From: Bacteroidota bacterium
GTDB lineage: Bacteria > Bacteroidota > Bacteroidia > Palsa-965
Direction of reading: 5' to 3'
NCBI GenBank assembly: GCA_013298545.1
Contig: JAAFIA010000034.1
Coordinates: forward strand, 1-48,638
Length of the DNA: 48,638 nucleotides
The notes under the pieces were generated by a model, which was given only the letters and a program-made list of their open reading frames with translations, had not been told where the DNA came from and made no database searches. A program made the position numbers and the translations under genes. This document shows, piece after piece, positions 2,974-48,638 of this stretch. Numbering within the stretch: the stretch's first letter is position 1; each line of letters starts with the position of its first letter.

Positions 2974-5130
2974 TTATTTGCTCAGAATTTTAAACTCCGT
3001 GCGGCGGTTGTTTTGGCGGCCTTGATCCGTGTCGTTTGTATCTATCGGTTTGTCCATGCCGTAGCCTTTAAACTCCATGCGCTCCGCCTTGATGCCTTTG
3101 CTCACGAGGTAATCAAAAACGGCCTTCGCGCGCGCCTCCGACAATTTCTGGTTCATCTCTGCTCCGCCCCGATTATCGGTATGCCCCGAAACTTCAATGC
3201 GCATGCTCGGCACGTCTTGCAAGAGTTTCACCAAGCGATCCAATTCGGTAAATGATTCGGGACGCAAGGTCGATTTTCCCGTATCGAAAAATACGTTGCG
3301 CAACACTATCGAACTGCCTACGGCAACTGGTTTCAAAGCAATGTCTTTCACCACTTCTTGATACGTTGCGACAGCCGGAATATCGAAGTTTTCGGAATGA
3401 AACAAATAGCCTTCTGCTTTCACCGCAATGCCATAATTTTTTCCGGAAGGAAGCGAAACGAGGTATTTTCCACTCGCGCTGTTTGACGTAAACGTAGCAA
3501 TCACTTCGCGGCGTTCGTTGTCCACCAACTCAATCGAAGCCATCACGGGTTTGTTCGTGATCGCATCGGTAACCATGCCTTTCAACAAGGTTACTTGCGC
3601 CGTTTTAATTTCAACCGTTGCCGCAGGTTGTACTGTTTTTACTGCGGCAGAAATTCCGGCCAACAAATTATCTTCGGTGCTGAGTGCCAATGGTTTTTCT
3701 GGTCCGAGGAAGGTGATTTTATAAATGTCTTTTTCGCCATAACCATCGCCTTTGGTAGAAGCGTAATACCCGTGCCGACCATTGGCCGAGATGACAAAAA
3801 ACACGTCATCATCTGGTCCGTTGATGGGATAACCTAAGTTTTCGGGTTCGCTCCATTTCCCGTCTTTCAATTCTGTTTTAAAAATATCGTAGCCACCCAT
3901 ACTTTTATGGCCTTGCGAACTGAAATAAATTGTTTTTCCGTCAGGATGCACAAACACACCTTCTTCGCCGTAAATGGTATTGATGGGCGCACCAATATTT
4001 ACGGCCTTGCCCCATTTTCCCTTTTCGTCCATCGTAGAAAACCAAATATCGCGGTTGCCCAAACCACCTTCTTTGCGATCGCTGACGAAATACAATTTCT
4101 TGCCATCGTAAGAAAGCGAAACTGACGATTCGTGATCGGATGAATTGATGTTTTTATTCATGCGCTCCGGCTCCGTCCATTTATCGCCTTTGAGAAAACT
4201 CTCGTAAATATCGCCGCCATTTTTGGGACGATAGACATATAATTTTTGTCCGTCAGGCGAAATTCCTGCTGTGGCATCGTGATCATCGCTATTTACAGGT
4301 TTCCCAAGATTGGTAGGTGTTGACCATTTTCCACCGGAGTACGCACTGGTATAAATGTCTTCAAAAAATTGGTTGTCTTGATCTTTGACACCACCCGTAG
4401 TTGAATTTCGGCGCGAGGTAAAATACATCATAGATTCATCAGCAGTAATGATGGGCGTGTATTCGGGATCGCCAGAATTGAGTCCAGCACCAGCATTGTC
4501 GATGAATACGCGCGTTGGATTTTTCATCAATTCTTTGCCGTTCAAGCATTCGCCAATTTTGCGGTTGATGTCGGCAATATCGCCTTGATTTTCGTTTGGT
4601 TTGGCGTTGAAAGGTTGCTGGTAGGCGCGGTAAGCCGTCATGGCTTCGTCCCAACGCGAGTGCAAATGATACAAACGCCCGAGGTAATACTGCACCATGG
4701 GATCAACGTTTGGATTGAGTTTTACGGCTTTCTCGGCATAATTCAAGCCCATCATTTTCTGATTCGGAATGTTGTAATAACACACCGCAATTCTGAAATT
4801 GAGCAAAGCGTGGTTGGGATTAAACTGATTGGCTTTGAGGTATTCGTCAAGGGCCATACGAAACCCTTCGAGTCCAACGCCGCCCAATTCGTTGATGCCG
4901 TTTGGCAAATAATTATTTTCCTCGATGAAGTGCTTGAGTTCGGACGCTTGCATATCGCTCGCTTGTTTGAAATAATCGTTTCCGTTCTCGTATTGCCGAC
5001 GGGCTTCCTTGAGTGTTTTTTTATCGGGGAAATTTTTCTCGTCAAATTCTACATTGCTTTGAGCAGCGAGAAAATTGGTTGCACATAAACATACTGCGAG
5101 AGCAAAAATAGATTTGGTCAGGAAATTCAT
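2974..5130 (-). CDS. PorE-like envelope protein: TPR, PD40 propeller, regulatory-like domain, OmpA domain
   Basis: The product has about 718 residues starting at MNFLTKSIFALA; another ATG three codons upstream (5139) is possible. A signal peptide ends near AQS. TPR-like helices follow (residues about 75-160), then PD40/WD40-like repeats (about 190-450) with repeated blades such as SPDGQKLYVYRP and DGKKLYFVSDR. Next comes a carboxypeptidase-regulatory-like domain (VTLLKGMVTDAITNKPV) and an OmpA peptidoglycan-binding domain with VSGHTDNRG and NNRRTEFKIL. This order matches PorE of the type IX secretion system, but Bacteroidota carry several paralogues. PorE is a lipoprotein, whereas no clear lipobox is seen here. 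It lies in a run with a TPR protein upstream. Confidence 0.85.
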   Translation of the reverse strand: MNFLTKSIFALAVCLCATNFLAAQSNVEFDEKNFPDKKTLKEARRQYENGNDYFKQASDMQASELKHFIEENNYLPNGINELGGVGLEGFRMALDEYLKANQFNPNHALLNFRIAVCYYNIPNQKMMGLNYAEKAVKLNPNVDPMVQYYLGRLYHLHSRWDEAMTAYRAYQQPFNAKPNENQGDIADINRKIGECLNGKELMKNPTRVFIDNAGAGLNSGDPEYTPIITADESMMYFTSRRNSTTGGVKDQDNQFFEDIYTSAYSGGKWSTPTNLGKPVNSDDHDATAGISPDGQKLYVYRPKNGGDIYESFLKGDKWTEPERMNKNINSSDHESSVSLSYDGKKLYFVSDRKEGGLGNRDIWFSTMDEKGKWGKAVNIGAPINTIYGEEGVFVHPDGKTIYFSSQGHKSMGGYDIFKTELKDGKWSEPENLGYPINGPDDDVFFVISANGRHGYYASTKGDGYGEKDIYKITFLGPEKPLALSTEDNLLAGISAAVKTVQPAATVEIKTAQVTLLKGMVTDAITNKPVMASIELVDNERREVIATFTSNSASGKYLVSLPSGKNYGIAVKAEGYLFHSENFDIPAVATYQEVVKDIALKPVAVGSSIVLRNVFFDTGKSTLRPESFTELDRLVKLLQDVPSMRIEVSGHTDNRGGAEMNQKLSEARAKAVFDYLVSKGIKAERMEFKGYGMDKPIDTNDTDQGRQNNRRTEFKILSK

Positions 5131-22303: not shown

Positions 22304-22333
22304 TTTGTAAATTCAGCAGAATGTGTACTTTTG
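22304..22333 (+). promoter_or_regulatory. Promoter of the SRP RNA gene
   Basis: TTTG at 22304-22307, 18 nt, then TACTTTTG at 22326-22333. This is the best match in the window to the Bacteroidota sigma factor consensus. Confidence 0.8.
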
Positions 22334-22336
22334 TGC

Positions 22337-22437
22337 TGGGTAAGTCTTATACGACCAGCTCCTGTTGACTCCCCCAGGACCGGAAGGTAGCAAGGGTAAA
22401 TGGTTGAGCGGTGCGATATAAATCGCTTACCCATTTT
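22337..22437 (+). ncRNA. ffs: Signal recognition particle RNA, small bacterial type (4.5S)
   Basis: The conserved SRP Alu-less core is present: CTCCTGTTGACTCCCCCAGG at 22359-22378, then ACCGGAAGGTAGCAAGGGTA (22379-22398), the GGAA tetraloop and asymmetric internal loop that bind Ffh. The ends pair as GGGTAAG (22338-22344) with CTTACCC (22426-22432), giving a single hairpin of about 100 nt. A T-run follows and acts as terminator. A consensus promoter ends a few bases upstream. The RNA forms SRP with Ffh and targets membrane proteins to the Sec machinery. Exact ends are uncertain by a few bases. Confidence 0.96.
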
Positions 22438-23018: not shown

Positions 23019-23092
23019 GCGAATTGGTAAATTGGTGATTCACAAACTCAACAACTAGCCAACTCAACAATTCACCAATTTACCAATTCGTC
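23019..23092. repeat. Palindromic octamer repeat (AATTG core)
   Basis: The left arm has 8-mers GCGAATTG and GTAAATTG; the right arm has their inverted forms CAATTTAC and CAATTCGT. CGAATTGGTAAATTGGTGA (19 nt, from 23020) is repeated exactly inverted at about 23073-23091. The same 8-mer family appears at 46243-46314 and 48018-48065. It lies between the peroxidase promoter and the next promoter. Confidence 0.8.
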
Positions 23093-23155
23093 AATTCAAC
23101 ATCAGAAATAACTGAAAAAAAATAAGGCGACGGAATTTAAAACCTCATTTCAGAT

Positions 23156-29776: not shown

Positions 29777-30468
29777 TACCTGCATTTTTTAATTGGAGTG
29801 GCGGAAAAGACTCATCACTCGCCCTCTGGAAAATTCAACAAGAAGGAAAATTTTCCATTCAATCGCTCTTAACTAGCATTAACGCACACCACAGCCGCAT
29901 TTCCATGCACGGTGTGCGCCGCAGTTTGCTCGAACAGCAAGCACAAGCCTTACAAATCCCGCTTCATACGATTGAATTGCCCGAACATCCGAGTATGGAT
30001 GAATACGCAACCATCATGCACAATGGTGTCGATATGTTGAAGAACAAAGGCATGCACCACGCTATTTTTGGCGATATTTTTCTAGAAGATTTACGCGCTT
30101 ACCGCGAAAAACAATTGGCCACACAAAGCGTTGAGGCTGTTTTCCCGCTTTGGAAAATAGATACCAAACTGTTGATGCAGGAATTTTTAGATGCGGGATT
30201 TAAAGCCATTACGGTATGCGTTTCGGAAAAAAAACTAGGACCCGAATTTTGTGGACGCATCATTGACCAAGCGTTTTGCGAAGCCTTGCCCAGCGATGTG
30301 GACATCTGCGGCGAAAATGGCGAATACCATTCCTTTGTCTTTGATGGCCCAATTTTCAAACAACCAATTCCGTTTCAATTAGGCGAATTGGTGCACCGCT
30401 CCTACCCTGCGCCCGATGATACCAGCGAAGCGTATGGGTTTTATTTTCAGGATTTATTGGCCGATTGA
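29773..30468 (+). CDS. Dph6-like ATP-pyrophosphatase (diphthine-ammonia ligase family)
   Basis: The product has 231 residues from the ATG at 29773. The PP-loop FFNWSGGKDSSLALWKI lies at residues 4-20. HGVRRSLLEQQA (about 46), FGDIFLEDLRAYRE (about 98) and GENGEYHSFVFDGPIF (about 177) are the other Dph6 (DUF71) signatures; the last holds the GENGE(Y/F)HT-type motif. In archaea and eukaryotes Dph6 amidates diphthine on elongation factor 2. Bacteria lack diphthamide, so the bacterial substrate is unknown. The start overlaps the upstream stop by four bases. The last codons, GAT TGA, are the first bases of a tandem 144-bp repeat. Confidence 0.87.
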   Translation: MIPAFFNWSGGKDSSLALWKIQQEGKFSIQSLLTSINAHHSRISMHGVRRSLLEQQAQALQIPLHTIELPEHPSMDEYATIMHNGVDMLKNKGMHHAIFGDIFLEDLRAYREKQLATQSVEAVFPLWKIDTKLLMQEFLDAGFKAITVCVSEKKLGPEFCGRIIDQAFCEALPSDVDICGENGEYHSFVFDGPIFKQPIPFQLGELVHRSYPAPDDTSEAYGFYFQDLLAD

Positions 30469-30896
30469 TATTCGGAGATAATATTTCTTAATCTCCACCG
30501 CGTTTGCAACGCGGTGGAACGAGATTCGCGTTTGCAACGCGCATTACTTAAAATCTTCTTCTAATCAATCAAACTGTTCAATATAGGCTATGTAGAATTT
30601 GTGGACGATTGATATTCGGAGATAATATTTCTTAATCTCCACCGCGTTTGCAACGCGGTGGAACGAGATTCGCGTTTGCAACGCGCATTACTTAAAATCT
30701 TCTCCTAATCAATCAAACTGTTCAATATAGGCTATGTAGAATTTGTGGCAAGATTGATATTCGGAGATAATATTTCTTAATCTCCACCGCGTTTGCAACG
30801 CGCATTACTTAAAATCTTCTTCTAATCAATCAAACTGTTCAATATAGGCTATGTATAATTTGTGGCCGATTGATATTCGGAGATAATATTTCATAA
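30463..30896. repeat. Tandem array of a 144-bp unit (three copies plus a partial fourth)
   Basis: Units start with GATTGATATTCGGAGATAAT at 30463, 30607, 30752 and 30868, with lengths of 144, 145, 116 and about 29 nt. Each full unit holds two hairpins: stem CCACCGCGTT / AACGCGGTGG with loop TGC, flanked by AATCTC and GAGATT, and then CGCGTT / AACGCG with the same loop. Unit three lacks exactly 28 nt between the two copies of GCGTTTGCAACGCG. The first unit includes the last codons of the Dph6-like gene. It fills the whole gap to the next promoter. Confidence 0.93.
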
Positions 30897-46242: not shown

Positions 46243-46314
46243 CAACTCACCAACTTATCAACTTACTAATTCGCCAATTTACCAATTTGCCAACTTTTCA
46301 ATTCGCCAATTTCA
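46243..46314. repeat. Octamer array (CAAYT core), nine units
   Basis: Nine consecutive 8-mers without a gap: CAACTCAC, CAACTTAT, CAACTTAC, TAATTCGC, CAATTTAC, CAATTTGC, CAACTTTT, CAATTCGC, CAATTTCA. Five positions are almost constant and three vary. The last two units supply the final codons and stop of the minus-strand arsenate reductase-like gene. Confidence 0.88.
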
Positions 46315-46874: not shown

Positions 46875-47948
46875 ATGGATCAAGAAAATCAATCGTCCTA
46901 TTTCAAAGGACGCGGCGCACAAATCAATCCCCACAACCGTTTTTTCAAACGTCAACTCGTTCAAGAACATCTTGAAATGCTTGACGAACCCTTGCTCCAA
47001 AGCGAGAAAACAGAAATTATTTTCGCCCATCCCAAAACCATTGTCAACAAAGTGGATAGTCCCGATTTAAAAGGCTTGTCCATGAATCCGTACCAAGGTT
47101 GCGAACATGGTTGCATTTACTGTTATGCCCGAAATGCCCACGAATACTGGGGCTACAGCGCAGGTTTGGATTTCGAGCGAAAAATCATGGTCAAAGAAAA
47201 TGCGCCCGAATTGTTGCATCAAGAATTGAGCAAAGCCAGTTGGAAACCCGAAGTCATCATGTTTTCGGGCAATACCGATTGTTATCAACCCCTTGAACGG
47301 AAATTTGAAATCACACGACGCATGCTCGAAGTGCTGCTCCGGTTCAAACATCCCGCAGCCATCATTACTAAAAATGCACTCATTCGGCGCGATATTGATT
47401 TGTTGCAACAACTCACAAAATACGATTTGGTACATGTGATGATTAGCATTACGGGCCTCGACGAATCCTTGCGTTCAAAACTTGAACCACGAACAGCAAG
47501 TTACAAGCAACGCCTCGAAACCATCCGCGCATTGGCCGACGCAGGTATTCCGGTTGGCGTAATGACAGCGCCCATTATTCCCGGACTCAACAGCCACGAA
47601 ATTCCAGATGTACTCGAAGCCGCACGCGATGCCGGCGCACAACAAGCTGGCTACACCATGGTGCGACTGAATGGTGCGGTGGGCGAAATTTTCCGCGATT
47701 GGCTCGATAAAAATTTCCCCGATCGCGCCGAAAAAGTTTGGCATCAGATTCAATCCTGCCACGGCGGCCAAGTCAACGATTCCCGATTCGGAACACGCAT
47801 GCGTGGCGAAGGCCCAATTGCCGAAAGCATTCGCAACCTCTTTCATATCAGCGTCAAAAAATTAGGCTTAAATCAAATCAAAACAACACTACGCACCGAT
47901 CTTTTCGACCACCGCGCCGGAAGCGATCAAATGCGCTTGGAATTTTAA
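46875..47948 (+). CDS. PA0069-family radical SAM protein
   Basis: The product has 357 residues from MDQENQSSYFKGRGAQINPHNRF; a start 29 codons upstream would overlap the arsenate reductase promoter region. The radical SAM motif is CEHGCIYCYARN near residues 77-88 (C-x3-C-x2-C). GRGAQINPHNRF at the start, LSMNPYQGC, MFSGNTDCYQPLE, AIITKNALIRRDIDLL and MTAPIIPGLN are typical of the PA0069 family, which is related to spore photoproduct lyase-like enzymes. Function not established. The C-terminus ends RLEF. The start codon lies head to head with the minus-strand arsenate reductase gene region. Confidence 0.93.
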   Translation: MDQENQSSYFKGRGAQINPHNRFFKRQLVQEHLEMLDEPLLQSEKTEIIFAHPKTIVNKVDSPDLKGLSMNPYQGCEHGCIYCYARNAHEYWGYSAGLDFERKIMVKENAPELLHQELSKASWKPEVIMFSGNTDCYQPLERKFEITRRMLEVLLRFKHPAAIITKNALIRRDIDLLQQLTKYDLVHVMISITGLDESLRSKLEPRTASYKQRLETIRALADAGIPVGVMTAPIIPGLNSHEIPDVLEAARDAGAQQAGYTMVRLNGAVGEIFRDWLDKNFPDRAEKVWHQIQSCHGGQVNDSRFGTRMRGEGPIAESIRNLFHISVKKLGLNQIKTTLRTDLFDHRAGSDQMRLEF

Positions 47949-47971: not shown

Positions 47972-48122
47972 TGAGACATGAGAGATAAGACAAAAGACGT
48001 GAGACTGGATGAATTTGCGAATTACCGAATTGGTAAATTATTGATTCGCCAATTCACCATTCAACATCTGCGCGAAAGCAAGTGCGGTCTCATGTCTCTC
48101 GTCTCATATCTCATGTCTGCGT
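47972..48122. repeat. Nested palindrome: heptamers outside, octamers inside
   Basis: The left arm has five 7-mers (TTGAGAC, ATGAGAG, ATAAGAC, AAAAGAC, GTGAGAC; 47972-48006). The right arm has five inverted 7-mers (GTCTCAT, GTCTCTC, GTCTCAT, ATCTCAT, GTCTGCG; 48088-48122). Between them lie octamers of the AATTG family: GCGAATTA, CCGAATTG, GTAAATTA and inverted TTGATTCG, CCAATTCA (48018-48057). No gene is seen in 47949-48414. Confidence 0.85.
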
Positions 48123-48184: not shown

Positions 48185-48415
48185 TGGAACCTGGAAATTA
48201 GAATCTGGAAATTGGAACTTGGAAACTGGAACTTGGAATCTGGAAATTGGAATCTGGAAATTGGAACTTGGAATCTGGAACTTGGAACCTGGAAATTGGA
48301 AATTGGAACTTGGAACTTGGAACTTGGAATCTGGAAATTGGAATCTGGAAATTGGAATCTGGAATCTGGAAATTGGAACTTGGAACCTGGAACTTGGAAC
48401 TTGGAATCTGGAACT
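48185..48415. repeat. Tandem heptamer array TGGAANN, 33 units
   Basis: Thirty-three consecutive 7-mers, exactly 231 nt, all reading TGGAA plus two bases, except for one TAGAA. The two variable bases are CT (11 units), AT (9), TC (9), CC (3) and AC (1). No insertion or deletion breaks the phase. The array ends on the first base of the stop codon of the minus-strand exonuclease gene. All six frames stay open for long stretches because of the repeat. Confidence 0.96.
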
Positions 48416-48638
48416 TAAAACTTCACAACAATTTTCTTCAACCACGGCTTCGCTTTCAAATAGCTCAACACCAAATCATCCGCATCTGGAAAATGTTTGC
48501 CTTGATTGAGTTGTACGCGCAAATCATCTGCGGTGGCCAATACATCCGTATCATTGAGCCAACCATATCCCGCAAACCGCCCACGATCAACCCAAATAAG
48601 TGACTGTTCATCCTGCTCGCGGCCCGTATCCACCAATA
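48415..48638 (-). CDS. C-terminal end of a DNA polymerase III epsilon-like exonuclease protein (5' end outside the window)
   Basis: The frame is open from the window edge to TAA (48415-48417) and gives 73 residues. They read TGREQDEQSLIWVDRGRFAG and end in YLKAKPWLKKIVVKF. This fits the C-terminal tail of Bacteroidota proteins that join a DnaQ-like exonuclease domain to a UvrC-type GIY-YIG region, which end in an S-x-x-W/L-V-(D/E)-x-G-(R)-(F/Y)-x-G-(Y/F)-G pattern and a K-K-I tail. The catalytic part is outside the window, so the call is tentative. The stop codon overlaps the last unit of the heptamer array by one base. Confidence 0.6.
   Translation of the reverse strand, partial: LVDTGREQDEQSLIWVDRGRFAGYGWLNDTDVLATADDLRVQLNQGKHFPDADDLVLSYLKAKPWLKKIVVKF

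Follow-up and report, generated by a model that had tools for sequence, protein, structure and literature searches.

The window analysed is a stretch of 48,638 nucleotides from a Bacteroidota bacterium. A radical SAM gene, a hairpin, a heptamer array and the end of a convergent gene lie at its right end:

46875–47948, forward strand: upstream gene encoding a radical SAM protein (PF04055), with its stop codon at 47946–47948
47972–48006, forward strand: left arm of a TGAGACN hairpin, five units, recognised from the sequence and belonging to a family confirmed genome-wide
48012–48065, no strand assigned: inner stem within the TGAGACN hairpin, with octamer-like GAATTNGC / GCNAATTC words, recognised from sequence and folding
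48087–48121, forward strand: right arm of the TGAGACN hairpin, five NGTCTCA units, predicted to pair with the left arm
48185–48415, forward strand: (TGGAAHY)33 array, putatively one arm of a TTCCA...TGGAA type of element, directed towards the 3' terminus of the gene on its right
48415–48417, reverse strand: TAA stop codon of the convergent gene, sharing one base with the last array unit (48415 is the last base of both the array and the stop codon)
48418–48638, reverse strand: C-terminal part of the convergent gene, which runs off the contig and has no Pfam match

The array is 231 bp long and consists of exactly 33 heptamers. The TGGAA core is intact in 32 of the 33 units, the exception being unit 3, which reads TAGAATC, and the last two bases are limited to CC, AT, CT, AC and TC. 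After first-order Markov shuffling of the window (100 shuffles), the longest run contained two units. The recount and the shuffles confirm the phased array described in the initial annotation. The recurrence of units 8–11 as units 21–24, 91 bp apart, which had also been pointed out, is present in the sequence; identity at lag 13 is 0.50 compared with 0.23 in shuffles (z 3.0 for the 13-unit block). The units do not contain stop codons, and therefore every frame across the array is open and the open reading frames that cross it are no evidence of a gene; the array was rejected as a protein-coding gene. A search of Rfam did not identify a family covering the array. Contig C83 ends about 220 bp away from the array, and 10 of the approximately 42 array places in the genome are less than 300 bp from a contig end, compared with about one expected. 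Since arrays break the assembly and the window array is near a contig end, array lengths and counts are lower bounds. Similar arrays sit inside many contigs, which makes it unlikely that the window array is an assembly artefact.

The window locus does not contain a TTCCA arm, and the predicted RNA fold of the region is no better than that of shuffles (z −0.08). The (TGGAA)n repeats of human satellite DNA pair with themselves, and such pairing was considered as a cause of the expansion. The folding prediction for a single array as a single strand gave no structure for either strand. The hairpin of the locus would instead be supplied by the neighbouring TGAGACN pair, which folds better than shuffles as DNA (z −3.0). 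Runs of three TGAGACN units occur 17 times in this genome and are absent from the 11 relatives tested. The TGAGAC-type arm comes first at all listed TGAGACN loci, and at one locus (L272) TGGAA and TGAGACN words are mixed within a single array. A search of congeners for the orthologous intergenic region showed that synteny around the window locus is not kept, and the neighbouring protein is 60–72% identical in these genomes.

Other repeats were observed elsewhere in the window. Octamer-like intergenic repeats at 23038–23101 and 46259–46312 (ATTCACCA, AATTTGCC) apparently represent a third word family of this genome. A 144-bp unit is repeated 2.4 times at 30458–30802 and contains CGCGTTTGCAACGCG palindromes, which resemble the GCAGGATTTGCAATCCTGC palindromes that surround one of the genome's Y1 transposase genes (L305). 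The Bacteroidales small SRP RNA (Rfam RF04183) is located at 22331–22436.

The initial annotation had proposed a search of the whole genome for TGGAA heptamers. The array pattern matched 209 and 206 times on the two strands and 0 times for a reversed control, and BLAST placed TGGAA arrays at about 42 places, mostly intergenic. Among six congeners, one genome contained three matches and five contained none. Most other Bacteroidota contain either no TGGAA arrays at all or short homogeneous runs, and short homogeneous TGGAAYY arrays are scattered over many phyla. Forty array-bearing stretches of this genome were retrieved, and unit statistics were calculated for 859 units from 55 arrays, the pooled consensus of which is TGGAAHY. 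The last two bases, described initially as taking 5 of 16 values, do take five values in the window array, but they are not random: position 7 is a pyrimidine in 99.8% of the 859 units and position 6 is never G. Core position 3 is A in 12% of units, and the remaining core variants are mostly transitions. Identical neighbouring units are rarer than in shuffles (0.17 compared with 0.30 at lag 1, z −9.2), with an enrichment at even lags (z about 3–4); the window array alone has the same trend, which is not significant. Therefore, either blocks of at least two units are copied or runs of identical units are lost. Because neighbouring units differ more often than by chance, growth did not proceed by single-unit slippage, in agreement with the reasoning of the initial annotation. 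Tandem duplication is evident in some array regions from higher-order repeats of about 50–90 bp. Apart from array-like words, no common flanking sequence and no conserved motif in the loops was found that would point to whole elements having been transposed.

The initial annotation had missed the inverted-pair geometry, the gene polarity, the abutment of stop codons, the adjacent hairpin at 47972–48121 and the genome-specific vocabulary. Its suggestions of protein binding and of a replication or recombination site found no support in this analysis. The arms occupy the edges of the intergenic space, with TTCCA first and TGGAA last in 24 of 24 two-armed regions, and the order is the same between convergent, tandem and divergent genes. 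At about 30 of the array-adjacent 3' ends that were inspected, TTCCA in the sense of the gene lies within about 0–30 nt after the stop codon, with no instance of the opposite case. At several promoters, the array ends 4–25 bp before the Bacteroidota −7 box TAnnTTTG. In an automatic gene call, in which gene borders were set by a simple ORF rule rather than by a trained gene finder, 20 of the 23 arrays scored have TGGAA directed towards the gene that lies closer (p = 0.0005). The same score is 21 of 30 in other Bacteroidota, a trend only, and 11 of 18 outside Bacteroidota, where the polarity is absent. The loops of different two-armed regions are unrelated to each other, and arms from the same region are no more alike than arms from different regions (p = 0.99). 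Therefore, the complementarity of the arms derives from a shared vocabulary rather than from the copying of a palindrome. If a stem were under selection, the arms within a region might co-evolve; such co-evolution was rejected on the same value. One array pair (L104, about 4590–4650, contig C111 of this genome) lies directly upstream of prfB, the start of which contains a TGA in frame, like that of the programmed frameshift in release factor 2. A gene beside one array encodes a type IX secretion sorting domain; both this domain and the small SRP RNA of the window fit a member of the Bacteroidota.

Different 7- or 8-base words are arranged in the same inverted geometry in other genomes, where they are found around genes of the S23/IVP family (PF05635). 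Of the 118 Bacteroidota genomes sampled, 90 contain the family, and a search of the genus gave at least 33 matches. At 19 of 28 loci, the inverted repeat between the flanks of the IVP gene, with a period of 7 or 8, is stronger than in 99% of 270 control genes (Mann–Whitney p 3e-13 and 3e-14). In the phylum sample, 11 of 30 IVP loci are above the highest control score of the genus test (within-locus controls, only 7). In this genome there is one IVP gene, and upstream of it lie arms of TGAGACN, the second word of the genome. This IVP gene shares a thiolase neighbour with the copy in genome G001, which has GTATTGA arms. The arm words of G001 reappear at many gene-less borders of that genome, GTATTGA with 23 hits and AAAGTTGG with 33 hits, the latter only in G001; both words are almost absent from the other six genomes. 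At locus L393 of G001, AAAGTTGG words form a gene-less hairpin that extends from stop to stop between convergent genes. The junction of pntA2 and pntB differs between genomes: the spacer is 19 bp in G006, an IVP-type four-helix-bundle gene lies between short inverted arms in G004, an IVP-gene remnant is present in G005, only arm-like sequence in G001, and about 490 bp of TTCCA/TGGAA arms in this genome.

Several observations were made at these loci. The pntA2–pntB arms of this genome (L088, 2867–3391, contig C82) contain an 86-bp higher-order repeat. IVP genes between inverted arms of 7–8-bp words in congeners and across the phylum (L315–L374) often fill the space from the stop codon to the next start, and recur beside genes for thiolase, lipoamide dehydrogenase, NADH dehydrogenase and guanylate kinase, as read by eye. 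A GTATTGA-type array of G001 (L376, 1480–1525) lies within a YggS-like coding sequence, as if overwriting a variable loop. In-frame insertion of the array into the YggS gene was rejected, as the alignment shows no added length.

The arrays could be plain minisatellites, that is, a neutral heptamer expanded by slippage, neither an element nor functional, since bacterial polymerases slip preferentially by 7 bp. Passages of PMC4679880 cite heptamers as the commonest long simple repeats of bacteria, with slippage as the proposed origin. The sporadic homogeneous TGGAAYY arrays in many phyla and the tandem duplication seen in some regions also fit this explanation. However, it predicts neither the invariant arm order nor the abutment of stop codons, neither the dispersal of one word to approximately 42 places of a single genome nor the deficit of identical neighbours, and it is weakened by the polarity; we consider it unlikely. 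The arms, which begin at the stop codon, could alternatively be bidirectional transcription terminators or hairpins stabilising 3' ends that grew over-long. Two-armed regions are predicted to fold far better as RNA than their shuffles (z −6.4 and −11.5), and the stop-to-stop hairpin of G001, which is complete, lies between convergent genes. Nevertheless, the elements also occur between divergent genes and at only about 42 places in the genome. The sequence beyond the array ends is T-rich but irregular, and because a U-tract is not consistently present after the second arm, classical intrinsic terminators are not demonstrated. A terminator origin thus appears somewhat improbable to us. Short TTCCA hairpins were also rejected as the general terminator of this genome, since an unbiased sample of 203 contained 27 cases of TTCCA after the stop, only slightly more than the 17 of TGGAA. 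The two Y1 transposase genes of the genome might suggest REP-like repeats mobilised by RAYT/Y1 transposase. The one of the two that was inspected has a separate palindrome family, GCAGGATTTGCAATCCTGC, at its flanks rather than TGGAA arms, and congeners with equally many Y1 genes do not contain the arrays. Mobilisation by RAYT is therefore unsupported, and we regard it as very improbable.

The arrays may also be gene-less relatives of S23/IVP intervening sequences, in which the arms would form stems, and other members would carry the four-helix-bundle gene in the loop, be co-transcribed and be excised by RNase III. This is consistent with the inverted period-7 or period-8 arms around IVP genes of the genus and phylum, with the TGAGACN arms at the only IVP gene of this genome, and with the reappearance of IVP-arm words at gene-less borders of the same genome. 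The pntA2–pntB junction, with a gene, a remnant and TGGAA arms in different genomes, argues in the same direction. However, an IVP gene or a recognisable remnant was not found between TGGAA arms in any of the 40 loci of this genome. Elsewhere, an IVP gene is in range at only 2 of 104 array loci, both times about 2 kb away, and there is no enrichment in other phyla. When the IVP sites of congeners were compared with the TGGAA arrays of this genome, only the pnt site corresponded, and this coincidence alone is not significant, as we estimate that about 0.25 would be expected. Furthermore, IVP genes may just exploit pre-existing hairpins. The relationship is plausible, although our judgement leans against it. 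The link between TGGAA arrays and IVP genes would be one of architecture and common vocabulary, short of proven descent.

We prefer the explanation that the window array belongs to a family of palindromic elements at gene borders, of which it represents a single, overgrown arm, and consider the chances of its being right or wrong to be even. The typical element would consist of the end of gene A, (NNTTCCA)n, an unrelated loop, (TGGAANN)m and the end of gene B. Only the TGGAA arm exists at the window locus. We infer that replication slippage and unequal exchange lengthen the arms, in steps of 14 bp and longer because runs of identical neighbours are unstable, and that exchange between loci keeps the units alike. 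The growth probably halts where a stop codon or promoter would be damaged. When transcribed from either side, the two arms would form a long RNA stem at the gene border, in line with the predicted folding. Such a stem could separate neighbouring transcripts by termination, by protection of 3' ends or by offering RNase III a site, comparable to the situation in 23S rRNA intervening sequences. Mobility of the elements is likewise conceivable. In our view, the elements are mainly selfish or near-neutral DNA that is tolerated owing to its benign position at gene borders.

More broadly, it is possible, and proposed here only tentatively, that Bacteroidota carry an undescribed class of gene-border elements with inverted arms of tandem 7–8-bp words, in which gene-less and IVP-carrying copies have a small private vocabulary in common. 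The words would turn over from one related species to another while the period and geometry persist, and the TGGAA arrays would be the gene-less, overgrown form. If so, the turnover of words at a fixed geometry would imply an active copying or homogenising process acting in trans, possibly aided by the IVP protein. If arms and IVP genes constitute one class of element, S23/IVP proteins gain a DNA or RNA context, and the rapid change of words provides a handle on the formation of bacterial heptamer arrays. From the strict polarity follows a prediction on transcript ends that can be tested.

The STRR of filamentous cyanobacteria, reportedly described by Mazel in 1990, are tandem, dispersed, intergenic heptamers. 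The TGGAA arrays likewise consist of several head-to-tail 7-bp units and are dispersed and mostly intergenic, so that the likeness to STRR put forward in the initial annotation holds, whereas the words differ. We know of no inverted-pair organisation of STRR. REP and BIME sequences are also dispersed intergenic palindromes near 3' ends, but they are not made of tandem heptamers, and the inspected Y1/RAYT gene, one of two here, is flanked by another palindrome.

Xanthomonas and Nostoc carry GGGNATC and GGGGA(C/T)T repeats (Rehm et al. 2015, PMC4692102), which are likewise heptamers with variable positions, dispersed and mainly intergenic. They lie 0–50 bp from ORF ends, sometimes overlap the stop codon and follow a strand rule relative to the nearest ORF. 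In contrast to the TGGAA units, which contain GG only and do not reach runs of at least three G (position 4 is G in 2.3% of units), they have runs of three to four G that form G-quadruplexes. About four units is their preferred number, compared with up to 33 or more here. The strand rule is opposite, as the G-rich strand after the stop is sense in Xanthomonas and Nostoc and antisense here. Their repeats are under-represented between divergent ORFs, and inverted pairs are not reported in the passages covered. The TAACTGA repeats (MacGregor 2015, PMC4679880) are intergenic heptamers that include examples from Bacteroidetes, with long arrays mixed with other heptamers and close relatives that have shorter, repeat-free intergenic regions. 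They differ from the TGGAA arrays in their word and in lying mostly upstream of start codons in Beggiatoaceae. The BOGUAY genome has 169 direct sets and only one indirect repeat, whereas inverted pairs are the rule here.

Complementary arms also border the intervening sequences of 23S rRNA, which RNase III cuts (PMC4990558). These sequences resemble the present elements in such arms, in the PF05635 ORF contained in the loop of some members, and in their dispensable location. They lie in rRNA, whereas the elements described here lie at gene borders and have arms of tandem heptamers. Complementary arms are present in 24 regions of this genome and are not formed by TGGAA at the window locus. No PF05635 match was found in the array loci of this genome, and because of this absence, although the ORF is optional in known intervening sequences, we do not file the TGGAA arrays as members of that group.

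The initial annotation knew of no described equivalent with this core in Bacteroidota. We found no description of the TGGAA core either, but heptamer arrays as such, TAACTGA and others, have been reported in Bacteroidetes (PMC4679880). The part of the literature searched did not contain a description of inverted heptamer arms around IVP genes. Heptamer arrays are already known from cyanobacteria, Xanthomonas, Beggiatoaceae and Bacteroidetes, whereas the strict polarity, the genome-private word and the link to an S23/IVP cassette appear to be new.
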